Below the pieces are notes generated by a model. That model ran no database searches and had not been told where the DNA came from. It saw nothing but the letters and a program-made list of their open reading frames with translations. A stretch of DNA of 64,000 nucleotides from Microbulbifer flavimaris (GTDB lineage Bacteria; Pseudomonadota; Gammaproteobacteria; Pseudomonadales; Cellvibrionaceae), in the NCBI RefSeq assembly GCF_001641755.2, contig NZ_LRFG02000004.1:248001-312000 (forward strand), written 5' to 3'. Both the position numbers and the translations under genes were made by a program. Shown here in pieces: positions 14,681 to 49,962 of the stretch. Each line of letters begins with the position of its first letter. The stretch's first letter is position 1.

Positions 14681-14733
14681 TCTGTGACTAGACTGTAATT
14701 TATCCGTCAATCCCAGCGGCACCGGGAGAACCC

Positions 14734-23426: not shown

Positions 23427-24728
23427 GTGACACAGACAGAAATCAGCAAAGACATTGCTATCGGCTTGATGTTTACAGCCACAGCTCTGCTGTGTGGCAA
23501 CGCCTGCGCGGATGTCGGCGACACACCCGCGACAGAATCCAGCGCTCCACCTCCCGCCTATCTCGAAGCGGCATCCAAACCCTTGCAGCTGGCAAAGCGA
23601 CAGTTGCGCCCCTCCGAAATCGTCGACAACTATCGCGAGCAGATTGAGGAAATGGAGGCCCTGCACGGCGCCTATGGCGCCGGACTTGATGAGCAGCTGG
23701 TGGGACTGGCGACTGCACTTCAGCGCAACGGCGCCCACCAAGAGGCTATCAGCGAGTTCCGTCGCGCCATGCTCATCAACCGGGTCAATGAGGGGCTCTA
23801 TTCCCTGAACCAGGTGCCCATGATCGAGCGCATGATTGAGAGCCAGATTGCACTCAATCAATGGGAAGACGCCAACGACAACCAGCAGTACCTCTACTGG
23901 CTGCACGCGCGCAATTTCGGGGAAAGTGATCCCCGCATGCTGCCCGTGATCGATAACCTCAGCCGCTGGCACCTGCAGGCTTACAAAGAGGAGAAAGGTG
24001 GCACCCTGTTCGAGCACCTGATCAGTGCCACCGACCTTTACAGCCTGGCAGTGGATATCATTACGCAGAACTTCGGCGCCAATGACCTGCGCCTTGTGGA
24101 GGCGCTGCGTGGTCTCAAGGCCACCAATTACTATCTCGCCACCTACAAGGGCGAACCGCAGCAGCCGGTTGTCATCAATACCAATTTCGGCGGCGGTCCC
24201 GACATGGAAGCTGCCCAGCGCACAAAGCTGGATCATTATCGCCTCAACAGCTTCAGCTCCGGCAAGCAGGCCATCGCCCGGATAGTGGATGTCTATCAGA
24301 AAAACCCCCAGTCCCCCCCGGCCGCTTCCGCAAAAGCCAAGGTGGAACTCGGCGACTGGTATATGATGTTTAACAAGTGGCATTCGGCCAGGAAGACTTA
24401 CGGAGAGGCCTACCAGGCACTCTGGGACAACGGTGCTACCAATCGGGAAATCGACGCCATATTTGGCCGGCCTGCAGCACTACCGGCACTGCCAATGCTC
24501 GATGCCGATCAGCCGGGGCTGGCGGAATCCTATGTGACCGTTTCCTACGACGTGACTGCTTTCGGCAAGGTGCGCAACATCAAGATACTGAACGCCCAGC
24601 CATCGGATAGCGTCAGTATGCGCTCCCGCGTTCGCAATGTACTGAAACGTGCAAAATTCCGCCCACGCTTTGCAAATGGCGAACCGGTGGAAACCAGCGG
24701 CATCGTGCAGCGGTTCGTATTCGACTGA
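23427..24728 (+). CDS. Periplasmic TPR-like protein with C-terminal TonB domain
   Basis: A 433-residue protein (GTG start). The N-terminus (IAIGLMFTATALLCGNACADV) looks like a signal peptide, although it has little positive charge; an internal ATG at 23469 is an alternative start. Residues about 60-330 are helical and TPR-like (LVGLATALQRNGAHQEAISEFRRAM, KVELGDWYMMFNKWHSARKTYGEAY). The last 80 residues (VTVSYDVTAFGKVRNIKIL, LKRAKFRPRFANGEPV) match the TonB C-terminal fold, which binds partner proteins in the periplasm. Unlike classical TonB, no persistent membrane anchor or Pro-rich rod is seen. First gene of the 23-39 kb cluster. Confidence 0.72.
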   Translation: MTQTEISKDIAIGLMFTATALLCGNACADVGDTPATESSAPPPAYLEAASKPLQLAKRQLRPSEIVDNYREQIEEMEALHGAYGAGLDEQLVGLATALQRNGAHQEAISEFRRAMLINRVNEGLYSLNQVPMIERMIESQIALNQWEDANDNQQYLYWLHARNFGESDPRMLPVIDNLSRWHLQAYKEEKGGTLFEHLISATDLYSLAVDIITQNFGANDLRLVEALRGLKATNYYLATYKGEPQQPVVINTNFGGGPDMEAAQRTKLDHYRLNSFSSGKQAIARIVDVYQKNPQSPPAASAKAKVELGDWYMMFNKWHSARKTYGEAYQALWDNGATNREIDAIFGRPAALPALPMLDADQPGLAESYVTVSYDVTAFGKVRNIKILNAQPSDSVSMRSRVRNVLKRAKFRPRFANGEPVETSGIVQRFVFD

Positions 24729-24847: not shown

Positions 24848-24948
24848 CTGTGCACTGTGAAGTGGCGTGTAAGCCCTTTTCCGGGGACCGCGCCAGACGC
24901 TCACGCACGACATCGGCCCGGGCCAGTCCCGGGACTCAGGAGAGAACA

Positions 24949-26187
24949 ATGACTCTACGGATAGCGGTACGAAACTCGGAACAACACGCTCTGGGCTGGC
25001 GCACTCTCGCTTCGGCCATTGTGCTGAGCGCAGTCATCAGTGGCTGTAAAACCCAGCAGACGCAGCAGCAGCCACCGGCGCAGCCCTCGCAGTCACAGTC
25101 CTCCCCCAGCTCGTCGTCACAGTCGCAGTCGCAATCACAATCCAGCTCCAGCAGCTCCTCCTCGAGCCGCAGCCAGAGCCAACCCCAGACTGCCAGCAGT
25201 GGCATGCCGCCCAGCAGCTCTTCCAGCTCACCGAGCCAGAGCATGCCCAGCAGCAGCGACAGCCGCACCAATACCAGCATGCCAACCATTGAGTCGGGCA
25301 GCGAAGCCAGCCGCGAGGCGAGCACCGCCTCCAGCAGCGGACAGGAACAGAGCCGCCAGCAGAGCTCGGCCGGTGACTCCATGCCGGATCCGACCGCTCG
25401 CAACGACCAGCCATCCTCGCCGGTCTACAGCGAGTCGGATGAGCGTCCGGAGGAGAGCAATATGCCCCCGGACCCCTCCACTAACAGCGAGGGAGAGCCA
25501 CCGGAGGAAATCGATTTTTCCGAGGAGGAGCAGACCGCGTCCTCTTCCAGCAGCTCTTCCAGTAGCAGTAGCTCTTCCAGTAGCAGCTCTGCCAGCAGCG
25601 CCTCCAGCAGCAGCGCCTCATCGGCGAGCAGCGCAGCCAGCGCTTCCGCCCCGAGCGGCTCACCCGCAAGCGGCGGCAGCCCCGCCCGCGGTGGCAGCGC
25701 CCCCAATGAGGCACCAGCGACAGCGGCCCAGCGGGTGGAACAGCTGGAAGGGGAGTTTGAAGCCACCATGGCCAGCTACGACGGCATGATCCTGCGTGAG
25801 CGGGATTATGTCCGTAACCGCCCCGCCTCTGAGGAGGAAACGGAGGAGATGGATGAGCCACCCCCCGGCGAGTCCCTGGAGGACCTGATCGAGTCCGCCG
25901 AGGCGGAGATACCACCCCCTCCCGGTGGCGGTGGCAGTGAGGGCGGCGGCCCGGAGCAGAACAATTCCAGCGGCCAGGCTACCGGTCCGGGTATGCCCAC
26001 CGCAGGCCGCAAGGGCGAATACGATCACGGTGGCAGCGCACCGGTGGTACCCGCCGACATTCCCAAAGGGGATGACGACGATGTGGTGGCGCGGCAAATT
26101 CGTGAGGCCGCCATGCGGGAATCGGACCCGGAGCTTCGTGAGAAGCTGTGGGAGGAATATCGGAAATACAAAAAAGCGCAGAAGTAG
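24949..26187 (+). CDS. Serine-rich low-complexity lipoprotein
   Basis: A 412-residue protein. The ATG at 24949 is preferred over an upstream frame extension because of the AGGAGAG in front of it and the signal it begins. The lipobox is AVISGC (Cys 33). Residues about 35-260 are almost entirely Ser with Gln, Pro, Ala and Glu, including one run of 18 serines, and must be disordered or extended. The C-terminus is a distinct acidic/basic helical module ending DDDDVVARQIREAAMRESDP and ELREKLWEEYRKYKK, which looks like the functional part. The protein may act as a long flexible tether from a membrane to a partner. The next gene starts 17 bases after the stop. Confidence 0.75.
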   Translation: MTLRIAVRNSEQHALGWRTLASAIVLSAVISGCKTQQTQQQPPAQPSQSQSSPSSSSQSQSQSQSSSSSSSSSRSQSQPQTASSGMPPSSSSSSPSQSMPSSSDSRTNTSMPTIESGSEASREASTASSSGQEQSRQQSSAGDSMPDPTARNDQPSSPVYSESDERPEESNMPPDPSTNSEGEPPEEIDFSEEEQTASSSSSSSSSSSSSSSSSASSASSSSASSASSAASASAPSGSPASGGSPARGGSAPNEAPATAAQRVEQLEGEFEATMASYDGMILRERDYVRNRPASEEETEEMDEPPPGESLEDLIESAEAEIPPPPGGGGSEGGGPEQNNSSGQATGPGMPTAGRKGEYDHGGSAPVVPADIPKGDDDDVVARQIREAAMRESDPELREKLWEEYRKYKKAQK

Positions 26188-26204
26188 TCGCGGAGGGACC
26201 CCCA

Positions 26205-27428
26205 ATGCAGTCACTGAACGCCAGCCTATTTCACACCGGCTTCGCCCGCACCGTCAGCCGCGCCATGGCGCTGCTGGCTGCCCTGGCACTGGTGGGCTGC
26301 GCCTCCACGGAGGTGCGCACCACGGCCTATACCCCTCTGACAGTCGAGGATGCCGCCATCGCCGAGGACCGGCTGCTGGACGTTGGCATTGTCCAGTTTG
26401 ACCCGGGGCTCGACACTGCCGAAGTCAACGAAGAGGAGCTGGTATTTCCAGAGCTGCGCCAGGCGGAATCCCGCTATATTGCCGTGACCCTGTCGGAGTC
26501 ACTGCAGTCAAGCCAGGGCTGGGGCGCAGTGCGGGTAATTCCCAGCCAGCGCACCAACATCGACGTCACCGTTTCCGGCCGCATCCTGCAGTCTGACGGC
26601 GAGACTCTCACCCTGGAAGTGACCGTGACGGACTCTCGCGGCCAGCGCTGGTTCACCAAAGAGTACAGCGAGAAAGCATCGCACTATGCCTACGATCGCA
26701 AACACCCCACCGAGGGCGACGCTTTTCAGGGCCTGTACAACAAGATCGCCAACGACATGCTGGTTTACCGCCAGCAACTCTCGGACCAGTACATTGCCGA
26801 ACTGCGCACCATTTCCGAGATGAAATTTGCCCGCAGTTTTTCACCGGATGCGTTCTCTCGCTACCTCACCCGCAGTGAAGACGGCATCTACCAGCTCAAT
26901 GCCCTGCCCGCCGAAAACGACCCGATGCTGCAGCGTGTGCGTCGCATCCGCGAGCGGGACTACCTGTTTGTGGACACCCTGCAGGGCTACTACGGCACCT
27001 TCGTCAAATCCATGGAGGAGCCCTACCAGGAGTGGCGGGCACTGAGCTTTGAGGAAGTTCAGCAGATGCGTGAGCTCAAGCGCAAGGCCCGCAACCACAC
27101 CATCATGGGGGCAGCGGCCATCGTCGGCGGTATCGCTGCGGCCGGTGCAGGCGGCGGTGCAGCGCGCCAGGCCGCCAATGTGGCGGTTGCCGGGGGCGGT
27201 TACCTGGTAAAGAGTGGCTTTGACCGGCGCAGCGAAGCGAAGATGCACATTGAAGCCCTGCAGGAGCTGGGAGATTCCATGCAGGCGGAAGTGGAGCCGC
27301 AGATCGTCGAGCTGGAAGACCGCACAGTGACACTGAGCGGAACGGTCGAGAACCAGTACCGCCAGTGGCGCGAGCTCCTGAGAGAGATTTACGAAGCGGA
27401 AACCGGCGGAATGGACGGCAGTATCTGA
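26205..27428 (+). CDS. Lipoprotein of unknown function with glycine-zipper segment
   Basis: A 407-residue lipoprotein not recognised as a named family. The ATG at 26205 with CGGAGGG upstream is chosen over a longer frame that overlaps the preceding gene; the lipobox is ALALVGC. The first 200 residues resemble small outer-membrane-type beta domains (YIAVTLSESLQSSQGWGAVRV, VTVSGRILQSDGETLTLEV). Around residue 300 a Gly/Ala-rich hydrophobic stretch (TIMGAAAIVGGIAAAGAGGG) resembles a glycine zipper that can insert in membranes. The C-terminal 60 residues are a charged helix. Part of the cluster; probably outer-membrane associated. Confidence 0.7.
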   Translation: MQSLNASLFHTGFARTVSRAMALLAALALVGCASTEVRTTAYTPLTVEDAAIAEDRLLDVGIVQFDPGLDTAEVNEEELVFPELRQAESRYIAVTLSESLQSSQGWGAVRVIPSQRTNIDVTVSGRILQSDGETLTLEVTVTDSRGQRWFTKEYSEKASHYAYDRKHPTEGDAFQGLYNKIANDMLVYRQQLSDQYIAELRTISEMKFARSFSPDAFSRYLTRSEDGIYQLNALPAENDPMLQRVRRIRERDYLFVDTLQGYYGTFVKSMEEPYQEWRALSFEEVQQMRELKRKARNHTIMGAAAIVGGIAAAGAGGGAARQAANVAVAGGGYLVKSGFDRRSEAKMHIEALQELGDSMQAEVEPQIVELEDRTVTLSGTVENQYRQWRELLREIYEAETGGMDGSI

Positions 27429-27494
27429 AATGCGGAGCGGAGGCATGCCTTCGCTCTACCCCCGGAACAATAACCACGACATTGCGGAATCACT

Positions 27495-29063
27495 ATGCAA
27501 CACCGCGACCAGAATCCGGACGATAAGGGCGTTATCCGCCCCGCAGACTTCAGTTTTGGCGGCTCTGAAACAGCTGAGAGCACCGCGCAACCGAAAAACA
27601 GCACGACGAAAAGCAAAGATAGCAGCCGGGATTTCCGCCCTGTTCTTATTGGCTCCGTGCTGGCCTTTGGCCTGGTAGGCGTCTTCTGGCTCCTACCCCA
27701 GGCAGTGGAAAAACCCAAAGTTCAGCGCCCTGTTGCCTCGACGGAGGCAACGCAGGAACCCACCACAGGCGCAAAGCCGTCCCCCATCAAGGCTTCACCT
27801 TTCAGCGATGCAGAGATTGCGCAGCAGCGCCGGGAAGTGCAGAAGGTACTGCAGGAGATTCTTGCACTTCAGGAAGAGTTGCGCGAACGCCAGGTCGATG
27901 TGTGGGCGGCCGAGGATTTCGGCAGCGCGCGGGGTATCGCCGAGGAAGCCGATGTCATCTACCGCCAGCGGAAGTTCATGCAGGCGCTGGAGAAATATCG
28001 GGCCTCCCTGGCCGCCCTGCAGGAAATCCGGGAAAGCATTCCCGAGCGTATTGAAAAACACCTGGCGGAAGGAAACGATGCCCTGGATCGAGGGGATGCC
28101 GAGGGTGCACATCACGCATTCGACCTGGTGCTCACCATCTCCGAGGATCATCCCCGCGGTGTCAAAGGCAAGGCCCGGGCGGAAAAGCTGCCCGAGGCCT
28201 GGCAGCATTTTTCCCGTGGCAAGCAAGCATTCGCCGAGCAGGATCTGGACACCGCCCGCGACGCCCTGCGCCAATCCCTGGCTGTAGACGGCGAGATCCG
28301 CCCGGCCAAGGTATTGCTGCCCCAGGTGCTTTCTGCCATCAAAGACCGGGACTACAGCGAGGCGATGTCAGCGGGTTACGCAGCCATTGGTGACGGGGAC
28401 TTCTCTGCAGCGCTTGAGGCATTCCAGAGCGCACAGAAACTGAAACCGAACGAAGAGGATCCTGCGCTCGGCATTCAGCAGGCCAAAAGCGGCCTGACCC
28501 AGACCCGCATCGATCGCCTTTTTGCTCAGGCGCGCCAGCAGGAGACTTCGGAAGAGTGGCACGCGGCGGTGAAAAGCTATGACAAGCTTCTGGCAATGGA
28601 TAAGAGCCTGGTTTCGGCCATCACCGGCAAGGCAAGGGCCCAGGCCCGGGCCGAGCTGGACGATCGTTTACAGGAACTGCTGAATGACCGGCTGTCCCTT
28701 AGCGGCAGTCAACGCAATCAGTATGCTCGCACCGTACTCAAGGATGCCCGCGCCATTAATGCGGAGTCACCCAGGCTTCAGGGGCAGATAGAGTCTCTGG
28801 AGACCGCGCTTACCCAGGCGGTAATCCCGGTTCCGGTCAAGCTGCAGTCCGACGCCACAACCCAGGTGACCATCTATCACGTAGGCCGGCTGGGTAACTT
28901 CAACGAGCGGGAAATCCCCCTCAAGCCGGGCCGCTATACCGCCGTCGGGACCCGTGCCGGTTACCGGGATGTGCGGCGCGAATTTACCGTAGTGCCGGGG
29001 GAGGAGCCGCCGGTGGTTGTCATCCGGTGTGCAGAAAAAATAAACAGCGCCAATAACAGTTGA
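27495..29063 (+). CDS. Single-span membrane protein with periplasmic TPR-like domain
   Basis: A 522-residue protein. An N-terminal 48-residue cytoplasmic tail is followed by one membrane helix (PVLIGSVLAFGLVGVFWLLP, about 49-68). A coiled coil (AQQRREVQKVLQEILALQEELRERQ split over residues 110-140) comes next, then helical repeats (EKYRASLAALQEIRES, AWQHFSRGKQAFAEQDLDTARDALRQSL, AAIGDGDFSAALEAFQSAQKL). The C-terminal 90 residues are beta-rich and PEGA-like (VQLQSDATTQVTIYHVG-type strand, PGRYTAVGTRAGYRDVRREF). Likely an inner-membrane scaffold reaching into the periplasm. Part of the cluster. Confidence 0.72.
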   Translation: MQHRDQNPDDKGVIRPADFSFGGSETAESTAQPKNSTTKSKDSSRDFRPVLIGSVLAFGLVGVFWLLPQAVEKPKVQRPVASTEATQEPTTGAKPSPIKASPFSDAEIAQQRREVQKVLQEILALQEELRERQVDVWAAEDFGSARGIAEEADVIYRQRKFMQALEKYRASLAALQEIRESIPERIEKHLAEGNDALDRGDAEGAHHAFDLVLTISEDHPRGVKGKARAEKLPEAWQHFSRGKQAFAEQDLDTARDALRQSLAVDGEIRPAKVLLPQVLSAIKDRDYSEAMSAGYAAIGDGDFSAALEAFQSAQKLKPNEEDPALGIQQAKSGLTQTRIDRLFAQARQQETSEEWHAAVKSYDKLLAMDKSLVSAITGKARAQARAELDDRLQELLNDRLSLSGSQRNQYARTVLKDARAINAESPRLQGQIESLETALTQAVIPVPVKLQSDATTQVTIYHVGRLGNFNEREIPLKPGRYTAVGTRAGYRDVRREFTVVPGEEPPVVVIRCAEKINSANNS

Positions 29064-29383
29064 GCCAAAGAACCGTCGCCCGAAATTCCGATCCAATGAC
29101 CAGGTCACTGTTCATTCGCTGAGGTTGCAGTCTGCTGACAACCCGCCAGCTCTGAGTCAGGACCGGGAATTATTGCAACTCAAAGCTGAACCGATCGGCG
29201 ACGCCAGTATCCGCAAAAAGATGTTTTTTGCGCCAAAGAATCAGGCGACCGCCATGCCTGTCAGGGTTGCGGGCTAAGCTGTTATGCACGGAAGAAGAAG
29301 TGCCAATACGTGAGGCCTGAGTGCGGCGATGGCCGCCGCCATTGCGATAATTCAGATAAGTGCGCAGTAACAGGAAGGCATAA
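29064..29383. other. Intergenic gap inside the cluster
   Basis: 320 bases without a credible ORF. An AT-rich inverted repeat, CGCAAAAA with TTTTTGCG near 29211-29232, forms a hairpin of about 8 bp. The gap may hold an internal promoter for the PEGA/FGE gene and its downstream neighbours, but no clear -35/-10 pair was recognised. Confidence 0.4.
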
Positions 29384-31474
29384 ATGACAGCGAAGGAAGC
29401 GGTACCTGTCCGTGATGGCGATCGCGCGGACGAAGACTTTTCGGTAATCCAGCCCACTGGCTTCACTCCCGTGCAGGTGGAAGACCGCGCGCGGCAACTA
29501 CTGCTTTCGCCCCGCGCACTCATCATTGCCGGCAGTATGCTTTTCGGCCTGCTGATTCTCGTTTACCTCCTGGTGGCCCGTTCCCTCATTTTTGAAACCC
29601 AGCCCGCCGATGCCAATGTGCAGGTCAGCGGCTTTGCCATTCCGCTTGGCGACGGGCACCTGGTGCTGCCCGGTAACTATGAATACACAGTGAGCGCCAC
29701 CGGCTATCTGCCAAAGAGCGGTGACGTGTCGGTATCCGGGGATAAAAACAGCCGCTACGCGGTGACACTCGAGCGGCTGCCGGGGCACCTCCAGGTAGTG
29801 AGCGACCCTCCGGTACCCGTGCGCGTCCTAATCGACGGCGCCGAAGTGGAGAGCGATGGCGGGCTGGCACGAAACATTCCCGCGGGCCGCAAGCGCGTCA
29901 CCGTGCTCACCGATCGCTACCTGCCATTTACCCGCGAGGTCGATATCCAGGGTCTGGATAACACCCAGCGCCTCCAGGCCAAGTTGCGCCCTGCCTGGGC
30001 CGACGTGCGCATCAGCAGCAACCCGCCCGGTGCGACGGTAACAGTCGAGGGAGAAGTCCTGGGAACCACACCGCTGACCGCAGAACTGATCCAGGGTGAT
30101 CGCATCGTGGAAATCTCCAAGCCCCAGCACAAGACTGCAAAGGTCCCGGTTGCAGTGACCGCTGGGGTAGACCAGGCCCTGACCCCGGTAGATCTTGCAG
30201 CAGCGGACGGCATCCTGCGCCTCGCCAGCACCCCGACTGGCGCCAGCGTCACGGTAAACGGTGAATTCCGCGGCCGCACGCCAATGGATGTGGAGCTGGA
30301 ACCGGGTACCACTCACCAGGTGCGCCTGTTCAAGGACGGCTACTCGGCAATAGAGCGGAGTATCGATATCACCGCTGGTGTCGAGCGGGAACTCAGCGTC
30401 GACCTCTCCGCAGTGTTCGGCAAGGTTCGCGTCACCAGCAGCCCATCCAACGCGGAGGTTTATATCGACGGGCGGCTGGCAGGTGCCGCGGGAGAGACCT
30501 TTACCCTGCCCGCCCGCAGTCATCGCATCGTGGTGCGCAAGGAGGGTTTCGAGGACTACGAAACCACCGTTGTGCCCAGTGCCAAGTTGGAACAGAGTAT
30601 CCGCGCGGTGCTGCTTACTGCGGAGGAGGCTCGCTGGAGCCAGGTACCGGCGGAAGTCACCCACGGGGCCGGAGGCCGCATGCTGCTGATGCGCCCCAAC
30701 GCCCAGTTCACCATGGGTTCTTCGCGACGGGAACAGGGGCGCCGCGCCAATGAAGTCATGCGCCAGATTGCCCTCACCCGCCCCTTTTACCTGGGTACCA
30801 CCGAGGTGACCAATCGCGAGTTTCGCCGCTACCAGCGCATGCACACTTCCAGTCATGTGAACGGGGTCAGCCTCGACAATGACAACCTGCCGGTGGTGAA
30901 CATCAGCTGGGCGGATGCCGCCATGTTCTGCAACTGGCTCAGCGAGCGCGACGGGTTGCGGCCGGTCTATCGCACCGAAGGCAATCGGGTTGTGGGCTTT
31001 GACGCCAGCGCCAACGGCTATCGGATGCCCACCGAGGCCGAGTGGGCCTGGGCTGCCCGCTACGAGGGTGGCAGCATGAAAAAATTCCCCTGGGGCGACG
31101 AACTGCCAGTGCGAAAAAATTCGGGCAACTTCGCCGATAACAATGCCGCCCAGCTGGTTCCCGCCGTGCTGCGCACCTATACCGATCGCTACGCCGCTAC
31201 GGCTCCCGTGGCCAGCTACCAGCCCAATTCACTGGGTATCTATGACCTGGGCGGCAATGTCTCGGAATGGATTCACGACCTGTACACCATCGGCACCGGT
31301 CTCTCCCTGCGTCGGGAGGAAAACCCGGTCGGTCCCCAGGACGGCGACTACCACGTGATCCGCGGCTCCAGCTGGCGCCACGCCGGACTGACCGAACTGC
31401 GCCTGTCTTACCGGGATTACGGTGCCGAGCCACGCAATGATGTGGGCTTTCGCCTGGCGCGCTGGGTGAACTAG
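29384..31474 (+). CDS. Membrane-anchored PEGA-repeat protein with C-terminal FGE/SUMF1-like domain
   Basis: A 696-residue protein: cytoplasmic tail (1-43), membrane helix (ALIIAGSMLFGLLILVYLL, 44-66), then about five PEGA-like beta repeats to residue 410 (for example VRISSNPPGATVTVEGEVLG, LASTPTGASVTVNGEFRGRT, VRVTSSPSNAEVYIDGRLAG). From about 426 to the end comes a formylglycine-generating-enzyme-like domain (FYLGTTEVTNREFRRYQ, NISWADAAMFCNWLSE, YRMPTEAEWAWAARY, GIYDLGGNVSEWI, NDVGFRLARW). The catalytic Cys pair expected between the RGxSW and GFR motifs is missing, so it is probably a structural or binding domain, not a sulfatase activator. AGGAAGG precedes the start. Confidence 0.85.
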   Translation: MTAKEAVPVRDGDRADEDFSVIQPTGFTPVQVEDRARQLLLSPRALIIAGSMLFGLLILVYLLVARSLIFETQPADANVQVSGFAIPLGDGHLVLPGNYEYTVSATGYLPKSGDVSVSGDKNSRYAVTLERLPGHLQVVSDPPVPVRVLIDGAEVESDGGLARNIPAGRKRVTVLTDRYLPFTREVDIQGLDNTQRLQAKLRPAWADVRISSNPPGATVTVEGEVLGTTPLTAELIQGDRIVEISKPQHKTAKVPVAVTAGVDQALTPVDLAAADGILRLASTPTGASVTVNGEFRGRTPMDVELEPGTTHQVRLFKDGYSAIERSIDITAGVERELSVDLSAVFGKVRVTSSPSNAEVYIDGRLAGAAGETFTLPARSHRIVVRKEGFEDYETTVVPSAKLEQSIRAVLLTAEEARWSQVPAEVTHGAGGRMLLMRPNAQFTMGSSRREQGRRANEVMRQIALTRPFYLGTTEVTNREFRRYQRMHTSSHVNGVSLDNDNLPVVNISWADAAMFCNWLSERDGLRPVYRTEGNRVVGFDASANGYRMPTEAEWAWAARYEGGSMKKFPWGDELPVRKNSGNFADNNAAQLVPAVLRTYTDRYAATAPVASYQPNSLGIYDLGGNVSEWIHDLYTIGTGLSLRREENPVGPQDGDYHVIRGSSWRHAGLTELRLSYRDYGAEPRNDVGFRLARWVN

Positions 31475-31483
31475 GAGACGAGC

Positions 31484-31801
31484 ATGAAACGCCATCAGAG
31501 CGAAGAAAAAACAATCGATCAGGTCCATGCACGCACCGCCTCGGCTGCGTTTCCAGCGGTTACCGCTTTACTCGCTGCCCTTCTGCTGTCTATCGGCTTA
31601 GCCGTCTCGAGTGGATTGGCGATCGGCCAGGAGGCCACCGAGAATGAGGAGGAGCAGGAAGAGCCTGTGCAGGTGGCCCAGGTAGAAGAAAAGGCCAGCG
31701 AGGACGGCAGCGCTCAAAGCGGCAGTGACAACGCCGATGAGTACGAAGCCTCCGAAGAGATCTCAGAGGATCTGTCGGTTTCATTCCCGGTGGACATTTA
31801 A
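31484..31801 (+). CDS. Small exported acidic protein
   Basis: A 105-residue protein not recognised. One hydrophobic segment (AVTALLAALLLSIGLAVSSGLAIG, about 25-48), probably a signal peptide or anchor, is followed by a strongly acidic tail of about 55 residues (ENEEEQEEPVQVAQVEEKASED). It begins nine bases after the PEGA/FGE stop with AGGAGA in front and is surely co-expressed with it. It could be a small accessory subunit of the membrane assembly. Confidence 0.65.
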   Translation: MKRHQSEEKTIDQVHARTASAAFPAVTALLAALLLSIGLAVSSGLAIGQEATENEEEQEEPVQVAQVEEKASEDGSAQSGSDNADEYEASEEISEDLSVSFPVDI

Positions 31802-31901
31802 GTCCGGGCTCTCGTTGGCCAGAGTTGAGCCTCAAGCGACAAATAGAATCTGCAGGGGCCGGCGCCCGTCGGGCCGCCCCGGTAACTGAGCGAGAAGCAC
31901 T

Positions 31902-32696
31902 ATGAAATTCAAGTCGTCCGATTTTATCTTCCAGCTGTTTGCCCTGCTGGCAGCGGTGATCCTGGTACATGCGGTGTATGTGGCCATCATTCGCCCCAAT
32001 GCCGATGCGCTGATCGAAGAGCAGCTGGCGCGTGAGGCAGCCGGTGAAACCTACGTCCAGCAGCGCTCACTCTACATCGTGATGCGCGACTACGAGCAGG
32101 AGGCCTGCTTTGTGCTGATGCTCTGGGCCATGGCCATCATGGGGCTCAAGGCGCAGCGCAGCATGCGTGAGCGGCGACTGCTGGACAAGGCACTGCTCAA
32201 TGTCAGTGAGGGCACGCCCATCCTGCCTGAGGACGCGCGCGACCTCTCACGCCCCATTCAGGCTCTGCCGGAGGAGGAACGCAACTACCTGTTGCCGCGC
32301 GCGCTACTCACCGCCCTGCAGCGATTTGCGTCCACCAAGAACGTGGCGGCAGTGTCCAATTCCGTGAAGGAAGTCTGCGAGACCGAGGGGGATCGACTGG
32401 ATTCCGAACTGGCCATGGTCCGGTACATTACCTGGGCCATCCCCTCGATCGGTTTTATCGGCACGGTGCGCGGTATCGGCGAGGCACTATCGCAGGCTCA
32501 CCGCGCAGTCGAGGGTGATATCGCCGGCGTGACCGTCAGTCTCGGTGTGGCCTTCAACTCTACTTTCATCGCCCTGGTGATCAGCATCGTGATCATGTTC
32601 TTCACCCACCAGCTGCAGCTGATGCAGGAGCGGCTGGTACTGGACACACAGAATTACTGCGACAACAACCTGCTGCGCTTTCTGAAAGTCAGTTAA
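31902..32696 (+). CDS. MotA/TolQ/ExbB-family proton channel-like protein
   Basis: A 264-residue inner-membrane protein. TM1 is about residues 8-30 (FIFQLFALLAAVILVHAVYV) and TM2 about 68-84 (ACFVLMLWAMAIMGLK). A cytoplasmic domain with helices (85-172) precedes TM3 (ITWAIPSIGFIGTVRGIGEA, 176-195) and TM4 (VTVSLGVAFNSTFIALVISI, 210-236). The 'P-x-x-G-x-x-G-T-V-x-G-I' stretch is the hallmark of the ExbB/TolQ family. Such proteins form pentamers around two B subunits and let protons through to drive motion. The B-subunit candidates are the two vWA genes two and three positions downstream. Confidence 0.9.
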   Translation: MKFKSSDFIFQLFALLAAVILVHAVYVAIIRPNADALIEEQLAREAAGETYVQQRSLYIVMRDYEQEACFVLMLWAMAIMGLKAQRSMRERRLLDKALLNVSEGTPILPEDARDLSRPIQALPEEERNYLLPRALLTALQRFASTKNVAAVSNSVKEVCETEGDRLDSELAMVRYITWAIPSIGFIGTVRGIGEALSQAHRAVEGDIAGVTVSLGVAFNSTFIALVISIVIMFFTHQLQLMQERLVLDTQNYCDNNLLRFLKVS

Positions 32697-32793
32697 CGGG
32701 TCGCAGGCAAAAAGAAAACGTTGAGCAAAACAGCGCTTCGCCACGGCGCCAATCCCTCGCTCCGGGGCGGTACAGTGAAAAGAGGAATACCCT

Positions 32794-34098
32794 ATGGGAC
32801 AAGGTGTCCTTGAAATCAATGACTGCGGGCTGCGGGTATTTACCGGCACCGATGAGATTCTGGAAAGTCCGGGAATGGCGGTCGTGGAGCCCCACAAGAT
32901 TCTGGTCGGGACCGCAGCCCTGATGCGCGCGCGCTGCCACCCCACCCAGGTCAACAACCAGTTCTGGCGGCGCCTCAGCCTCGAAAGCCTGAAATCGGAA
33001 AATGCCCGCTGCCGGCATCACGCGGACCTGGCCTACTGCCATCTCCAGGAAGTAGCCGACCACTGCGACCTGCCGGAAAAGCTGGCGCTGGCGGTGCCCG
33101 GCAATTTCAGCCGTGAACAGCTCGCCCTGCTGCTGGGCATCATCAAGGAGAGCCCCATCAACGCCGTCGGGCTGGTGGATGCCGCCACGGCCTGTATCAG
33201 TTCCGTTGCCCCCCGCGGCGTGCACCTGCACGTGGAACTGCAACGACAGCAGACTCTGGTGAGCCGCGTCGCCGTGCACGAACAGGCGGTGCTGGATATC
33301 GCAGAGACCGTCAACGATGCCGGGCTGCAGCACTTCCAGGATGCCTGGGCCCGGGTGTTCACCGACGCCTTCATTATGCAGTGTCGCTTCGACCCGATGC
33401 ACTCGGCCGAGGCGGAGCAGCAGCTCTATGACCTGATGCCCCAATGGATCAATCGCGCCATGCGAGGCGGTGAGGTCATGGCCGAAATGGAAGACCGTAC
33501 CGCGAAGGTCACCCTGCGCCAGCTACAGGACGCCAGCACCCCGATACTGTCCCGCGTGCGGGCCCTGATCGAAAACCTGTCGGAATCCACCAGTGTCGTG
33601 TTCGTCTCACACCGCTGGGCGGAGATTCCCGCTGGAGCGCAACTTGCGGAACGCATTCACCTGTTGCCCCACAACTGTATTGCGCAGGCGGTCGCAGGCC
33701 GCTGGGAGCAGGTTTACAGCACTGCCGAGGCCCTGCCCCTGGTCAACGCACTCGACGCCGCGCCTCCCAGCGAGGTGGCAGTGCAGGTCAACAGCGCCGC
33801 AGAAGCGGCGGCTACCCACCTGCTGTTCGGCCACCGGGCACTGGCAGCACAGCAGCCACTGTTTGTCAGCTGGCAAGAAGGCAGACTCAATATCACCCCC
33901 ACGCCCCCGGAACACCCCGCTGGCACCGTCACCAGCCATGCAGGCCGCCTGGCACTGCGTGTCGATGCCGGCGCGCGCCTGATGCTGAACGGGCAGGAGA
34001 TCTCCACACCGGTCAACCTTGCCGCCGGAGACAGGATCGGGGTACCGGATCTGGAAGACGTGATTACCGCAATCAGCGTGGAGCGTTATGGCGCGTAG
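32794..34098 (+). CDS. Degenerate Hsp70/actin-fold protein
   Basis: A 434-residue cytoplasmic protein. Its order of segments resembles an Hsp70/MreB-type nucleotide-binding domain: a first strand pair (GVLEINDCGLRVFTG), the LALAVPGNFSREQLALLLGI / INAVGLVDAATACISS segment (compare the Hsp70 'VPAYF...NEPTAAAL' region), and a strand where Hsp70 has DLGGGT but here reads HVELQRQQT. Loss of the phosphate-binding glycines suggests it does not hydrolyse ATP normally. The last 60 residues (RLMLNGQEISTPVNLAAGDR) resemble an FHA-like strand end. Its stop overlaps the next vWA gene by 11 bases. The assignment to this fold is by pattern only. Confidence 0.6.
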   Translation: MGQGVLEINDCGLRVFTGTDEILESPGMAVVEPHKILVGTAALMRARCHPTQVNNQFWRRLSLESLKSENARCRHHADLAYCHLQEVADHCDLPEKLALAVPGNFSREQLALLLGIIKESPINAVGLVDAATACISSVAPRGVHLHVELQRQQTLVSRVAVHEQAVLDIAETVNDAGLQHFQDAWARVFTDAFIMQCRFDPMHSAEAEQQLYDLMPQWINRAMRGGEVMAEMEDRTAKVTLRQLQDASTPILSRVRALIENLSESTSVVFVSHRWAEIPAGAQLAERIHLLPHNCIAQAVAGRWEQVYSTAEALPLVNALDAAPPSEVAVQVNSAAEAAATHLLFGHRALAAQQPLFVSWQEGRLNITPTPPEHPAGTVTSHAGRLALRVDAGARLMLNGQEISTPVNLAAGDRIGVPDLEDVITAISVERYGA

Positions 34099-35170
34099 AA
34101 AAAGGCGTTTTTCCGCCTTCAGCCTGTCGTTTCTCGACATCATGTCCTGCGGTTTCGGGGCCGTGGCGCTGATCTTTTTGATCATCAAGCACGGCTCCGA
34201 CCAGGACATTCAGGCAGAAAACCAGGACCTCGCCGCCGAGGTCAACCTGCTGCAGGAAGAAGTGGAGTTTGGCCGCGAGCATCTGGTGCTGGCGCGCAAC
34301 ACCCTCGACGTCACCAGCGACGAACTCGCAGAGGCCCAGGGGCTGGCCAGGCGGATCATGGAGCAGATCGACGAGGTCAAAGGCAATATCGCCGAGATCG
34401 ACAGCAATACCGAAGAGCAGGACATCAAACGCCTGCAGGAAAAGCTCAAGAAACTCGAGCAGGCCAAGAAAGAACTGGAGGCCGAAAACAAGAAACTGGG
34501 CAATAACGTGCGCAAATTTGTCGGCGATGGCGATCGACAGTATCTCACCGGCCTGCGACTTGGCGGCGACCGTATCCTGATCCTGCTGGATGCCTCCGCC
34601 AGCATGCTCGGCGACGAGCTGATCAAGGTTATCCGTACCCGCAATATGTCATCACGGGTGAAGCGCGAGACCGGCAAATGGCGTCGCTCCGTCAATACGG
34701 TTTCATGGCTTACCTCCCAGTTCCCACAGGACAGCCAGTACCAGATCTTCACCTTCAATACCGGTTTCCGTTCCGCCATACCCGGCACAGAGAGTCGCTG
34801 GCTGAATGTCGATGACCGGGATCAACTGGACCAGGCCATCAAGGAGCTGGACAAGGTGGTCCCTGAAAATGGCACCAGCCTTGAGCGGGTCTTCAACGCC
34901 ATCAATGGCATGAGCCCGCTGCCGGACAACATCATCCTGATCACCGATGGCTTGCCAACACAGGGCATGAAGGCACCCCGGGGCAACACCATTTCCGGCA
35001 AAAAGCGCCTCGACCTGTTCAAGCGGGCGGTCAAAGTGCTGCCGAAAAACGTGCCGGTGAATGTAATTCTGGCACCGATGGAGGGCGACCCCTACGCCGC
35101 CAGTGAATTCTGGAAGCTTGCCATGGAAACCCAGGGCTCCTTCCTGGCACCCTCGAGGGACTGGCCATGA
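34088..35170 (+). CDS. vWA-domain protein with ExbD/MotB-like N-terminal membrane helix (1)
   Basis: A 360-residue protein. A basic N-terminus (MARRKRRF) leads into one membrane helix FSLSFLDIMSCGFGAVALIF with Asp17 at its start, the same place as the essential Asp of ExbD/TolR/MotB. A coiled coil runs from about 38 to 140. The vWA domain (about 160-350) has a complete MIDAS: DASAS (168-172), Thr263 in NGTSLERV and Asp287 in ITDGLPTQG, so it can bind a metal ion and a ligand protein. By topology the vWA domain would be periplasmic. It overlaps both neighbours (11 bp and 4 bp ATGA). Confidence 0.88.
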   Translation: MARRKRRFSAFSLSFLDIMSCGFGAVALIFLIIKHGSDQDIQAENQDLAAEVNLLQEEVEFGREHLVLARNTLDVTSDELAEAQGLARRIMEQIDEVKGNIAEIDSNTEEQDIKRLQEKLKKLEQAKKELEAENKKLGNNVRKFVGDGDRQYLTGLRLGGDRILILLDASASMLGDELIKVIRTRNMSSRVKRETGKWRRSVNTVSWLTSQFPQDSQYQIFTFNTGFRSAIPGTESRWLNVDDRDQLDQAIKELDKVVPENGTSLERVFNAINGMSPLPDNIILITDGLPTQGMKAPRGNTISGKKRLDLFKRAVKVLPKNVPVNVILAPMEGDPYAASEFWKLAMETQGSFLAPSRDWP

Positions 35171-36171
35171 GACGTAATCGCAACAAAAGACAACAGGAAG
35201 AATTCAGCATCTCCTTTCTCGATGTCATCTGCTGTGGCTTCGGCGCCATCGTGCTGCTGCTGATGATTGCCAAGACTGTCGAGCCCATCGTCCTGGAAGA
35301 GGCAGAGCTGGACCTGGACGGACAGGTGGAAGACCTGCAGGACCAACTGGCAGAGATCCGCGGTGAGACCACCGTGCTCAACCGGGACCTCAATGCCAAG
35401 CGGGAACAGCTGGATATCGAGCGCCAGCGCATCGCCATTCTCAAAGGGGAGCTGGAAACCCTGCAGGCCCAGTTCGCACGCAAGACCGAAGGGGAGTCGG
35501 AAGAGGGCAAGATCCGCGGTGAGCTCACCGTCGCACTGCAGTCGATGACTGCGGAAATGCGTCGCTTGCTGGGCGAAAACTATCAGCGCAAGAACAATGT
35601 TATCGGCGGTATTCCCGTCGACAGCGAATACATCCTGTTCATCATCGACACCTCCGGCAGTATGTTTAATTACGGCTGGGACCGGATGATGAACGAGATG
35701 GTCAACACCCTGAACCTGTATCCCAACGTGAAGGGCATCCAGGTGATGAACGACATGGGGGACTACATGTTCTCCAACTACCGCAATAAATGGATCCCCG
35801 ACACCCCCGGGCGCCGGGACGCCATCCTGAAAAGGTTGCGGTCCTGGAACCCGTTCAGTAACTCCAGCCCGGTGGAGGGCATTCAGAAAGCGGTGCGCAG
35901 CTTCTATGACCCGAACAAGAAGATCAGTATTTACGTTCTCGGGGATGAGTTTACCGGCAAGTCGATCCGCAGGGTCATGCTGGCAGTGGATCGCGTCAAT
36001 GCACAGCACGGTGAGGACAAGCGCAATGTGCGTATTCACGCCATCGGCTTCCCGATCCAGTTCTCGCGCCCCCCACACCTGCAGACCACCGGTCTACGCT
36101 TTGCAGCATTGATGCGGGAATTGACCTATCGCAATGGCGGTACGTTCGTCGGTCTCAACGATTTCCGCTAG
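35167..36171 (+). CDS. vWA-domain protein with ExbD/MotB-like N-terminal membrane helix (2)
   Basis: A 334-residue paralogue of the previous protein. The motif FSISFLDVICCGFGAIVLLL (13-32) has Asp19 in the equivalent place. A coiled coil (about 40-140) leads to a vWA domain with MIDAS DTSGS (161-165), Ser/Thr in NSSPVEGIQ and Asp260 in VLGDEF. It starts within the stop of the first vWA gene (ATGA). Two different vWA subunits could form the B-subunit pair of a 5:2 motor with the MotA-like protein. Function is inferred. Confidence 0.88.
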   Translation: MRRNRNKRQQEEFSISFLDVICCGFGAIVLLLMIAKTVEPIVLEEAELDLDGQVEDLQDQLAEIRGETTVLNRDLNAKREQLDIERQRIAILKGELETLQAQFARKTEGESEEGKIRGELTVALQSMTAEMRRLLGENYQRKNNVIGGIPVDSEYILFIIDTSGSMFNYGWDRMMNEMVNTLNLYPNVKGIQVMNDMGDYMFSNYRNKWIPDTPGRRDAILKRLRSWNPFSNSSPVEGIQKAVRSFYDPNKKISIYVLGDEFTGKSIRRVMLAVDRVNAQHGEDKRNVRIHAIGFPIQFSRPPHLQTTGLRFAALMRELTYRNGGTFVGLNDFR

Positions 36172-36196
36172 CAGAGAGCCAGCCCAGGAGCTGATT

Positions 36197-36886
36197 ATGG
36201 CTAACAGACAGAAAGGATTTCTCTCGATGATGCGACTCGCCGCCGCATCCGCAGCCCTATTGCTTGGCGCCTGCTCTCACACTGTCCAGGTGGATGGCGA
36301 GTTCCCACAGCCAGTGGGGCCGCAGCATCCGCTGACGGTCGGCGTTTACCTGAGTGAAGGCTTCCGTGAATTCACTTATCACGAGGACAGCGAAGACCGG
36401 GACGAGTGGAATATCAGTACCGGTCGGGCGCAGGAAAACCTGTTCGAGACCGTACTCGGCTCCATGTTTGCGGAAACCATACCGCTGGGCCAGTACCCCG
36501 CCAATCTTCCCAGCGATGTGGAGCTGGTCATCGTACCGGAGGTCCGCGAACTGCAATTCACCATGCCCCGTGAGACCCGGGTGAATATTTTCGAGGTGTG
36601 GATCAAGTACGACATGCACGCCTATGCCCCTAACGGTGACTCCGTGGCCAGCTGGGTAATCACCGCCTACGGTAAGACTCCGACGGCTTTCCTCAAATCC
36701 CGCGAGGCCGCCCTGGCCCAGGCGATCAATGTCGCCCTTCGGGATGCGGGGGCCACGCTCTACACCGGCTTTGCCAAGGTGCCCGAGCTGCAGGCGCTGC
36801 TTGCGGACAAACGCCGGGCGATTTCTCTCGAGAAGATCCCGTCGCCGACGGATACCGCCAGTGCGGTGGATACGCCGGTGGAATAG
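36197..36886 (+). CDS. Lipoprotein of unknown function in the vWA cluster
   Basis: A 229-residue lipoprotein. The ATG at 36197 (AGGAG upstream) starts a signal with lipobox ALLLGAC. The mature part has beta/alpha alternation (LTVGVYLSEGFREFTYHED, VELVIVPEVRELQFTMPRE, FEVWIKYDMHAYAPNGDSV), similar to small outer-membrane assembly lipoproteins that adopt a TolB-N/LptE-like fold, but no named family was recognised. The gene follows the second vWA gene by 25 bases. Confidence 0.65.
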   Translation: MANRQKGFLSMMRLAAASAALLLGACSHTVQVDGEFPQPVGPQHPLTVGVYLSEGFREFTYHEDSEDRDEWNISTGRAQENLFETVLGSMFAETIPLGQYPANLPSDVELVIVPEVRELQFTMPRETRVNIFEVWIKYDMHAYAPNGDSVASWVITAYGKTPTAFLKSREAALAQAINVALRDAGATLYTGFAKVPELQALLADKRRAISLEKIPSPTDTASAVDTPVE

Positions 36887-36900
36887 CGTGCAGCGAATTT

Positions 36901-36930
36901 GCGCACTGCGAAATCATTTGCGCAGTGCGC
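36901..36930 (+). other. Perfect hairpin between two lipoprotein genes
   Basis: GCGCACTGCG (36901-36910), a 10-base loop and CGCAGTGCGC (36921-36930) make a perfect 10-bp stem 14 bases after the stop of the preceding gene. There is no T run, so it is probably an mRNA processing or stability element that sets different expression of the genes on each side. Confidence 0.55.
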
Positions 36931-37014
36931 CTGTGCCGGCAGGGATGCAGTCGCCGGCACCACAGCCCCCTGGCGATACCGCTGCGGGGGCAGACCAATT
37001 GACAGGAGGTTGTT

Positions 37015-37683
37015 GTGGTTAGAGCTCTTTTTGGTTTTGCGCTGGTACTGCTCAGCGGCTGTACCACCGTGGTCATCGATGAATACCGTCGCAGCGATGG
37101 CGAGCTGGCCAAAGGGGACAGCGTCGTCATCCTCGGTCGCAGACATTCCAGCGATTACGAGACGGAACCGGACCTGATTGACTGCGTTGGCAAACAGTTG
37201 CACAACCCCGATGCCGGCCTGAATATCATCCCGGAGCAGCAGTTCGTAGACGCCATGTATCCCTGGTTCGAACCACGCACAGCGCCCATGCACCTGCGCT
37301 CCCTGGATCGGGTCATGAAAAATGACGAGTTGCGGCAGCGGCTTGAGGCCTACGGGGTGAAATACATCATCTGGATCGATGGCTCCACCGAGACTACCGC
37401 CAGCGCCGGCTCCATTGGCTGCTCCATCGGCACCGGTGGTGCGGGCTGTTTCGGCTTTGGTACCTGGGACAAGGAATCTGACTACGAGGCCTCGGTCTGG
37501 GACTTCCGCGATCAGGAGCTCTCCGGCAAGCTCAGCGCCGATGCCAAGGGCACTTCGTATATGCCGGCCATTGTCGTACCGATTCCGCTGATCGCCCGGG
37601 TTCAGAACAACGCCTGCAAGGGTATGGCCCTTCAACTGCAGGAGTTTCTGCTGCCCTCGCAGACAACAAAGCAAAAATCCTAG
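37015..37683 (+). CDS. Lipoprotein of unknown function
   Basis: A 222-residue lipoprotein starting at a GTG with ACAGGAGG seven bases upstream; lipobox VLLSGC. The mature part opens with KGDSVVILGRRHSSDYETEP and contains VKYIIWIDGSTETTASAG, then a Gly/Cys-rich stretch (GCSIGTGGAGCFGFGTWDKE), and a strand region ending in a conserved-looking NNACKGMALQLQEFL. The alternation resembles peptidoglycan- or polysaccharide-associated lipoproteins, but no family was recognised. The protease gene follows 15 bases later. Confidence 0.65.
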   Translation: MVRALFGFALVLLSGCTTVVIDEYRRSDGELAKGDSVVILGRRHSSDYETEPDLIDCVGKQLHNPDAGLNIIPEQQFVDAMYPWFEPRTAPMHLRSLDRVMKNDELRQRLEAYGVKYIIWIDGSTETTASAGSIGCSIGTGGAGCFGFGTWDKESDYEASVWDFRDQELSGKLSADAKGTSYMPAIVVPIPLIARVQNNACKGMALQLQEFLLPSQTTKQKS

Positions 37684-37698
37684 GGAGGCAAAGGATCG

Positions 37699-39150
37699 AT
37701 GCATACTTTCAATAAAATACTCATCGCTGCCCTCATCGCAACCACTGCCGGTTGCGCCTTCAATCCGGCCACCAACCGACCGGACCTGGTGCTGATGTCC
37801 GAGGAAAAGGAGATCAATATCGGCAAGGAAATGCATGAAAAACTGGTTGCCAGCACACCGATTTACAGAGACCCGGTTCTGACCGCCTATGTGGAGCATG
37901 TGGGGCAGAAAATTGCCAAGGCCAGTGACCGTCCCGACCTGAATTACACCTTTACCATCATCGATAGCCAGGACATCAACGCCTTCGCCCTGCCCGGTGG
38001 CTACATCTATATCAATCGGGGGCTACTGACATACATGCGCTCTGAGGCCGAGATGGCCGCCGTACTGGCACACGAGGTTGCCCATGTGACGGCCCGTCAT
38101 GCCGTACGCCAGAAAACGGCGGCGACCGGTGCCGGTGTCGCCTCCGTATTATCAGTACTGGTGACCGGTAGTGGTGTCGTCGGTGATGTGGCCAACCTCT
38201 GGAGTACAGCGGCAGTCAAAGGCTACGGCCGCGACATGGAACTGGAGGCGGACCGCTTCGGCGCCCAGTACATGTACAACGCCGGCTACGATCCACAGGC
38301 AATGATCAATGTGATCGGGATCCTCAAGGACCAGGAAACCTTCGCCCGCCGCAAGGCCCGGCTCGAAGGGAAAAAACCACAGACCTACCACGGTGTCTTC
38401 TCCACCCACCCCCGCAACGATATCCGCCTGCAGGAAGTGGTGGCTGCGGCAGGGAAACTGCCCGAGGACAAGAAAATCACCAAGGTGGAATACTACCGGG
38501 AGAAAACCGAGGGCCTCGTCTACGGCCGGAATGCGCAGCAGACCGAGAAAAACCGCTACAACCATACCCGCCTTGGATTTTCCCTGCTTTTCCCCGAGGG
38601 CTGGAAGGTGGAAAACCAGCGTTCGGCCATCGTCGGAACGGCGCCGGACAGCAGTGCCACCATCACCATCAAGGTCGCCAAGCGCAACGGCAACCAGCCC
38701 GCGGATATGGCTCTGCGGGAAGTCTACGATGTGCGCGAACTGGAGCAGGATGAAGCGCTCAGCCAGTACAGGCTGGTGGGCCATACCGGCAAGCTTCCAT
38801 CCGCCAGCGCCGAGCGCCCGGACCGGGTCGCCGTGCTCTATTACGGTAGCCGCCAGTACATGCTCGAGGGCAAGGTCCAGGGCGAGCTCTCGGACAAGGA
38901 GGCCCAGGAGCAGTACGACAACCTCTTCCTCACCAGCATTCGCAGCTTTCGCCCACTGCGCAGGACCGATGTCATGCAGCCGGATATCAAGCGGGTGAAG
39001 TATGTTCAAGCCAATGAAAAGACCACCTTTTCGTCATTGGCGCGACATATGGATATCGGTGAATATGCAGAGGAACAGCTGCGCCTGTTGAATGGCTACT
39101 ATCCACGGGGTGAACCCAAGCCCGGCGAGTGGATCAAGATTGTGCAGTGA
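37699..39150 (+). CDS. M48-family metalloprotease lipoprotein (BepA-like)
   Basis: A 483-residue zinc protease. Lipobox ATTAGC (Cys19). The zinc site is HEVAH (125-129) with the third ligand Glu183 in MELEADRFGAQYM. FALPGGYIYINRGLL precedes it, as in BepA/LoiP. The fold is a periplasmic M48 peptidase attached to the outer membrane, where relatives degrade misassembled outer-membrane proteins. Instead of TPRs the C-terminal half has a domain with LGFSLLFPEGWKVENQ and a LysM-like end (ANEKTTFSSLARHMDIG, YPRGEPKPGEWIKIV) that may bind peptidoglycan. Last gene of the cluster. Confidence 0.88.
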   Translation: MHTFNKILIAALIATTAGCAFNPATNRPDLVLMSEEKEINIGKEMHEKLVASTPIYRDPVLTAYVEHVGQKIAKASDRPDLNYTFTIIDSQDINAFALPGGYIYINRGLLTYMRSEAEMAAVLAHEVAHVTARHAVRQKTAATGAGVASVLSVLVTGSGVVGDVANLWSTAAVKGYGRDMELEADRFGAQYMYNAGYDPQAMINVIGILKDQETFARRKARLEGKKPQTYHGVFSTHPRNDIRLQEVVAAAGKLPEDKKITKVEYYREKTEGLVYGRNAQQTEKNRYNHTRLGFSLLFPEGWKVENQRSAIVGTAPDSSATITIKVAKRNGNQPADMALREVYDVRELEQDEALSQYRLVGHTGKLPSASAERPDRVAVLYYGSRQYMLEGKVQGELSDKEAQEQYDNLFLTSIRSFRPLRRTDVMQPDIKRVKYVQANEKTTFSSLARHMDIGEYAEEQLRLLNGYYPRGEPKPGEWIKIVQ

Positions 39151-49539: not shown

Positions 49540-49962
49540 TTACTCTTCGAAAGGCACCAGGGAAACCTGGATCCCCGGGCTCACCTCTTGCGCAGCATCG
49601 GCGATCTGCACATAGGTGTCCGCGCTGGACTTGTTGTGCGCGCGCACAATGACGATCGCCTGCGGGTTTTCCGCGTAAAGCTGGGCGATACGGGCCCGTA
49701 CTGCGCGGGTATCGATACGGCTCTGGGCCATAAAGATCTCGTCGTTGGCGTTGACGGTCAGCAGAATATTCTGCTTGTCGGGATCCGGCGGAATTTCAGT
49801 CTGCTTGTCCGGATCCGGCACGTTGACATCCAGCGCCTTCTCCTTAACAAAGGAAGCCGTCACGATAAAGAAGATCAGCATGATGAACACAACGTCCAGC
49901 ATGGGCGTCAGGTCGATGTCGGCCTTTTCCTCTTCTACGGCCTTACCGCGTCGTCTACTCAT
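49540..49962 (-). CDS. ExbD/TolR-family biopolymer transport protein (orphan)
   Basis: A 140-residue protein with a basic N-terminus, one membrane helix DIDLTPMLDVVFIMLIFFIV with the proton-carrying Asp23, and a periplasmic domain (ILLTVNANDEIFMAQSRIDT, QAIVIVRAHNKSSADTYVQI) typical of ExbD/TolR. ExbD normally works with ExbB to energise TonB; no exbB is adjacent here. Nearest ion-channel-like gene is the MotA/ExbB-like one at 31.9 kb. Monocistronic, between kynA and mgsA. Confidence 0.9.
   Translation of the reverse strand: MSRRRGKAVEEEKADIDLTPMLDVVFIMLIFFIVTASFVKEKALDVNVPDPDKQTEIPPDPDKQNILLTVNANDEIFMAQSRIDTRAVRARIAQLYAENPQAIVIVRAHNKSSADTYVQIADAAQEVSPGIQVSLVPFEE

Follow-up and report, generated by a model that had tools for sequence, protein, structure and literature searches.

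Can a proton-channel protein of the MotA/TolQ/ExbB family take two vWA-domain proteins as its B subunits, and on what would such a motor pull? The question is raised by a locus of Microbulbifer flavimaris (NCBI RefSeq assembly GCF_001641755.2, contig NZ_LRFG02000004.1) lying within a stretch of 64,000 nucleotides (positions 248,001 to 312,000 of the forward strand), which we call the window; it belongs to contig C4, and the genome as a whole measures 3.64 Mb. An earlier note on this DNA had read the locus as a three-gene system in which two vWA paralogues form the B pair of a MotA-like channel. We find that the vWA pair probably does serve as B subunits, and we suggest, more tentatively, what the motor may grip.

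Organization of the locus

A run of plus-strand genes extends from 24850 to 39150. Its members are listed here together with the lone classical ExbD gene of the window; helices, lipoboxes and signal peptides were assigned by eye or by simple hydropathy, with the lipoprotein sorting rule as general background.

24850..26187, plus strand: lipoprotein with a low-complexity linker, putatively outer-membrane; start codon uncertain
26148..27428, plus strand: second lipoprotein, putatively outer-membrane; lipobox by eye
27495..29063, plus strand: TPR protein, membrane-anchored by eye; TPR_2 27.7 bits, cut-off 27
29384..31474, plus strand: PEGA-FGE protein, inner-membrane anchor by eye; PEGA 167 bits, FGE 154.8 bits
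31484..31801, plus strand: small secreted protein; N-terminus hydrophobic, then a variable linker, ending in SEDLSVSFPVDI
31902..32696, plus strand: A subunit, MotA/TolQ/ExbB family, 264 aa; PF01618 53.4 bits
32794..34098, plus strand: Hsp70-like/FHA protein, 434 aa; predicted fold and profile matches
34088..35170, plus strand: vWA1, proposed B subunit, 360 aa; basic tail, Asp17 helix, coiled coil, vWA domain
35167..36171, plus strand: vWA2, proposed second B subunit, 334 aa; basic tail, Asp19 helix, coiled coil, vWA domain
36134..36886, plus strand: downstream putative lipoprotein; lipobox by eye
37015..37683, plus strand: downstream putative lipoprotein; lipobox by eye
37699..39150, plus strand: M48-family protease, loosely associated; PF01435 130.9 bits
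49540-49962, minus strand: ExbD, classical, lone copy in the window

The earlier note placed a MotA-like gene just upstream of the vWA genes. The family assignment stands, but the adjacency does not, as the gene for the 434-aa protein intervenes before vWA1; likewise, the three genes are indeed linked, but the unit does not stop there, the conserved operon comprising about ten genes. The ExbD gene that the note reported is real. The operon begins directly downstream of a gene (23427-24728) for a TPR protein whose TonB C-terminal-like domain scores just above cut-off. Elsewhere in the window (12431-17379), two adjacent genes each encode family-3 solute-binding and SLT transglycosylase domains.

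Most of the comparisons across relatives that follow use the best 80 of 241 confirmed loci and are therefore tilted towards close relatives. For the counts of threonines, metal-site residues and helix conservation, rows containing X, or an ORF starting at the edge of a locus, were dropped, leaving 63 of 67 A, 73 of 79 vWA1 and 78 of 80 vWA2 rows.

The A subunit and the vWA helices

The A protein passes the curated PF01618 cut-off of 22.9 bits and has, by eye, four hydrophobic segments. Thr188, Thr221, Pro181 and Arg190 are present in 64 of 64 rows drawn from the best 80 of 241 loci and the window. Both threonine columns recur in six further A-family proteins that this genome encodes (10 of 10 alignment rows), and we take these columns to be those of the ring-lining threonines of TolQ/ExbB. 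Mean conservation in helices 1, 2, 3 and 4 is 0.68, 0.78, 0.95 and 0.87. When the A-family profile was compared with PDB sequences, no match at E 0.01 was returned.

The vWA1 sequence includes FSLSFLDIMSCGFGA, and that of vWA2, following its basic tail, FSISFLDVICCGFGA. In both, as the earlier note had it, a basic tail precedes an N-terminal helix bearing an aspartate, at residues 17 and 19, respectively. This placement is more than chance, as the helix Asp occurs in every readable row from the best 80 of 241 loci and the window: 76 of 76 for vWA1 and 81 of 81 for vWA2. Of the 80 vWA1 rows (the window plus 79 loci), 75 were scored by a motif that did not fix the Asp position, each showing Asp there; one more (L172) has the Asp with an X nearby, and the remaining four are cut by a contig end and have no N-terminus. 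For vWA2, 80 rows were scored by motif and one (L140) by eye.

The helices themselves are unusually constant. Among the best 80 of 241 loci, their mean conservation is 0.85 (vWA1) and 0.83 (vWA2), near that of A-subunit helices 3 and 4 and about twice that of the plain anchors of the same operon (TPR protein, 0.44; PEGA-FGE protein, 0.42), which argues that the vWA helices are not mere anchors. When aligned with ExbD by hhalign, with the rows limited to those that span over 60% of each segment, they place Asp on Asp at weak probabilities of 13% and 20%; none of eight control segments exceeded 2.2%.

Outside the helix, vWA1 is recognized by two Pfam models barely above the cut-off of 27 (VWA_2, 27.3 bits; VWA_3, 27.4 bits). 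In vWA2 the Pfam vWA models fall under the cut-off, although the metal-site residues are still kept, and a search of its profile against the PDB returned coiled coils only. The Asp, Ser and Ser of the DxSxS motif and the distal Asp are present in 74 of 74 vWA1 rows and 79 of 79 vWA2 rows (from the best 80 of 241 loci). The Thr/Ser position of the site, read by eye, is Thr in 69 and Ser in 5 vWA1 rows, and Ser in 78 and Asn in 1 vWA2 row.

Linkage of the A gene to the vWA pair

Among the best 80 of 241 loci, vWA1 accompanies vWA2 in 79 and the A gene does so in 67; where at least 3.5 kb of upstream sequence is available, both are found with vWA2 in 63 of 63, which bears out the co-occurrence of the three genes on which the earlier note's proposal depended. 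With eight A genes in 3.64 Mb, we estimate a chance of about 1% that one falls within 5 kb, to one side, of a position picked at random. A further 31 loci, from which L097 was excluded for lack of a vWA gene, include the A gene in 29. The two misses are L089, which ends at a contig end, and L082, where the A gene is absent from 18 kb and is found on another contig of its genome (370.5 bits). In one complete genome in which it is unlinked to the vWA genes (G250), the A gene is nevertheless there, on another contig. At L078 and L081, two of the 31, the A gene sits after vWA2, not before vWA1.

The genome that contains the window has eight A-family matches, of which six have ExbD close by; the A gene studied here has the vWA pair instead. 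The seventh A-family gene (L008, at C4:343608, outside the window) is a distant member of the MotA/ExbB family. The ORF after it looks, by eye, like a B subunit of the MotB/ZorB type, with an Asp helix and an OmpA-like end; Pfam returned nothing for the piece of this ORF that was read.

If the vWA proteins acted beside the ring, in the manner of TolA or TonB, a canonical ExbD, perhaps the one at 49540-49962, would have to supply the axle. The lone ExbD is conceivable as a partner of the A protein: it has no A gene close to it, and the nearest in the genome is the one studied here, about 17 kb away. TolA/TonB-like vWA transducers are also described by Williams-Jones et al. (2025; PMC12204202). 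Among the best 80 of 241 loci, however, ExbD occurs in only 2, about 9 kb off, and in 0 of the 31 further loci; 78 of 80 and 31 of 31 loci thus have no ExbD close to the operon, counts to be read with the incompleteness of many loci in mind. By eye, moreover, the vWA1 and vWA2 alignments contain no S-H-L-S pattern of the TolA/TonB type in their helices, which have the invariant Asp instead. We regard this arrangement as unlikely and, given the scarcity of ExbD at these loci, set the lone ExbD low as a missing B subunit.

The Hsp70-like/FHA protein

The 434-aa protein encoded between the A subunit and vWA1 has, by eye, neither a signal peptide nor a membrane helix and is presumably cytoplasmic. 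Its AlphaFold2 model (pLDDT 93.4) has a fold like that of the Hsp70 nucleotide domain; Foldseek matched it to DnaK chains (best E 2.7e-15, with 9-14% identity among the matches listed), and profile matches in the PDB were to FHA and Hsp70 chains, weakly (E 0.006 to 1). When two members were scanned, only the L170 relative passed PF00498 in the FHA-like C-terminal part. The phosphate-loop glycines are, by eye, not kept, and the protein may therefore not use ATP.

A protein of this kind, typical of signaling or assembly, might lead one to see in the A and vWA proteins a sensor or an assembly scaffold, with no proton-driven motion and with the Asp playing a structural part. A scaffold, however, need not keep the Asp together with both of the threonines that align with TolQ/ExbB, and here all are kept. 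We consider this explanation quite improbable.

Conservation of the operon

Where about 10 kb of upstream sequence was available (55 loci of the best 80 of 241, with 25 of the 80 left out), gene order and strand are constant in 55 of 55, and these loci span many phyla or classes, going by record names. The two upstream lipoproteins are present in 53 (24850..26187) and 54 (26148..27428) of the 55, the TPR and PEGA-FGE proteins in 54 each, and the 434-aa protein in 53. Downstream, among the 62 of the best 80 of 241 loci with at least 5 kb, each putative lipoprotein (36134..36886 and 37015..37683) is found in 53, and the M48 protease in 44, a count in which the profile may have caught other M48 proteins. 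The gene for the 434-aa protein is missing from 11 of the 31 further loci and is thus accessory. Co-evolution gives no reason to set the A-vWA pair apart from the rest of the operon, since the distance trees are correlated to a similar degree for every gene (0.74 to 0.91).

Gene order by itself is no proof of a joint machine, and the Hsp70-like/FHA gene can be lost, as just noted, but an order and strand this constant over such a span make it highly improbable that these neighbors are functionally unrelated genes on a common operon.

The vWA2 of the window is 96% identical to that of a Microbulbifer guangxiensis relative. It was found in 24 of 25 genomes sampled from the genus, the one lacking it being 80% complete, and in 26 of 38 relatives in all. 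A class-wide sample (E 1e-5) gave 30 of 369 genomes, two of these through vWA1-like matches alone, and a phylum-wide sample (E 1e-20) gave 16 of 398. Among the record names of relatives are also Kiritimatiellia and Desulfobacterota-type bins; these come from metagenome assemblies and may have been misbinned.

Candidate partners in the envelope

In all 65 loci holding both flanking genes, the small secreted protein has a hydrophobic N-terminus and ends in [FYL]PxDI; its length, from a script-chosen start, ranges from 53 to 140 residues, and its middle is variable. As the 58 distinct coding strings indicate, it is the protein and not the DNA that is conserved. The [FYL]PxDI motif presets the Asp, but a test that left the position free found the penultimate residue to be Asp at 60 of 60 loci; by eye, the other five end in YPVDI. 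In other vWA systems the metal site binds an acidic ligand residue, and this C-terminus is a candidate ligand for the metal site of the vWA proteins. We found no paper that contains FPVDI as a word in the open-access literature searched.

The lipoprotein encoded at 24850..26187 has a Ser/Gly-rich linker and a helix-like, invariant C-terminal tail (DDDVVARQ...REKLWEEYRKYK) of acidic and basic character in a 21-row alignment, with 17 invariant residues near the end in the 21 rows. The lipoprotein at 26148..27428 is predicted to form long helices, and its N-terminal domain is faintly like LptE/TolB (model pLDDT 82.1; best Foldseek E 1.3e-3, with nothing at 1e-3 or better). A PDB sequence search with the first lipoprotein (the one with the faint fold matches) gave nothing below 0.4. 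In the PEGA-FGE protein, a C-terminal segment of the FGE-like domain, chosen by eye, is without Cys in 53 of 55 rows and has one Cys in the other two, which suggests that the enzyme function may have been lost. From sequence, the operon appears to encode a predicted trans-envelope cluster, in which we infer that the vWA domains may hold the small secreted protein, the tail of the 24850..26187 lipoprotein, or both.

Discussion

We think it probable that the locus encodes a proton-driven motor akin to MotAB, ExbBD and TolQR, in which the A protein is the ring, vWA1 and vWA2 together supply a two-helix axle, and the vWA ends grip the cell envelope. The linkage of the A gene to the vWA genes, the scarcity of ExbD, the invariant Asp, the conserved helix and the two threonines of the A protein all support the B-subunit assignment as a prediction, in keeping with the earlier note. 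Counted against it are the weak profile likeness of the vWA helices to ExbD, the tree correlations common to all operon genes, the PDB searches, which gave nothing for the A family at E 0.01 and coiled coils only for vWA2, and the lone ExbD of the window.

In such a motor, the A protein would form a ring, presumably in a 5:2 assembly, around the helices of vWA1 and vWA2. Protons would travel on Asp17 and Asp19 past the threonines of the ring, the helices would turn or shift (rotation being the movement we suspect), and the coiled coils would pass this motion to two periplasmic vWA domains. The metal sites of these domains could then engage an acidic envelope ligand, with a metal-dependent grip on partners from the same operon. 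A fuller proposal, possible but doubtful in our judgment, is that the B subunits of the 5:2 motor are metal-dependent grippers that hold, release or pull an acidic ligand, either the [FYL]PxDI terminus or the lipoprotein tail or both, so that proton flow at the inner membrane would tug on the outer membrane through a clutch set, in many species, by the cytoplasmic Hsp70-like/FHA protein.

Should the motor prove real, vWA domains would take their place next to peptidoglycan-binding and TonB-linked outputs at the working end of proton motors, and culturable marine bacteria, e.g., Microbulbifer and Pseudoalteromonas, would allow a direct test of the load on which these motors pull. For a motor so far predicted as two components, the operon offers partners that can be tested: a secreted peptide-like protein, a lipoprotein tether and the PEGA-FGE protein. 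Among these, the small secreted protein and the outer-membrane tether are fresh clues to the motor's possible load.

The earlier note knew of no described motor with vWA B subunits; the core idea, that of a vWA pair as motor B subunits, is in fact already in print. Williams-Jones et al. (2025; PMC12204202) describe vWA proteins that are tethered by a transmembrane helix and come as pairs of unlike members, in tight linkage with tolQ-like genes and without tolR or exbD alongside. They propose that such a pair, with its Asp-bearing transpore helix, is the dimeric partner of TolQ-like pentamers, and their AlphaFold3 models place the Asp inside the threonine ring. The operon studied here has in common with this TPH-vWA family the tolQ-like gene, the unlike vWA pair, the Asp helix, the threonine ring and the lack of tolR/exbD, the comparison with this family, which includes an Idiomarina example, being one of described features. 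The PEGA-FGE protein, the Hsp70-like/FHA protein, the lipoprotein tether and the FPxDI protein are unmentioned in the text of the section of that paper (section 8) in which the vWA pairs are set out. Within the open-access literature searched, we did not find the operon-level extension beyond the A-vWA core in print, and a search there for vWA-domain proteins in an operon with a proton channel family protein returned no paper.

Among known motors, ExbB-ExbD and TolQ-TolR share with this system the PF01618 domain, both threonine columns and a single B helix with its Asp close to the cytoplasmic side, but their B subunits have periplasmic domains of the ExbD fold, whereas here two different B subunits, of 360 and 334 aa, end in vWA domains. 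GldL-GldM, with GldK and GldJ in type IX secretion and gliding, likewise has a proton motor next to an envelope protein that is FGE-like. Here, the PEGA-FGE protein matches the TIGR03525 model of GldK at E 7.6e-34, and its 117.7 bits lie far under the cut-off of 350, so that it shares the domain and not membership in GldK. Zorya (ZorA-ZorB) has in common a MotA-like A subunit with a B subunit that is not ExbD, although ZorB is OmpA-like and the B subunits here are vWA proteins. The A protein matches the PADLOC ZorA model weakly (13.7 bits, E 0.0059), and this, together with some coiled-coil matches, was the best result of a PADLOC scan that gave no defense-system match of weight. A last parallel lies outside the bacteria. 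Rea1/midasin is an ATP-driven, force-producing machine of eukaryotes whose hold on its client depends on an acidic ligand residue at the metal site of a vWA domain; the grip that we propose for vWA1 and vWA2 would be akin to it, in a motor that is bacterial and that we suggest would be driven by protons.
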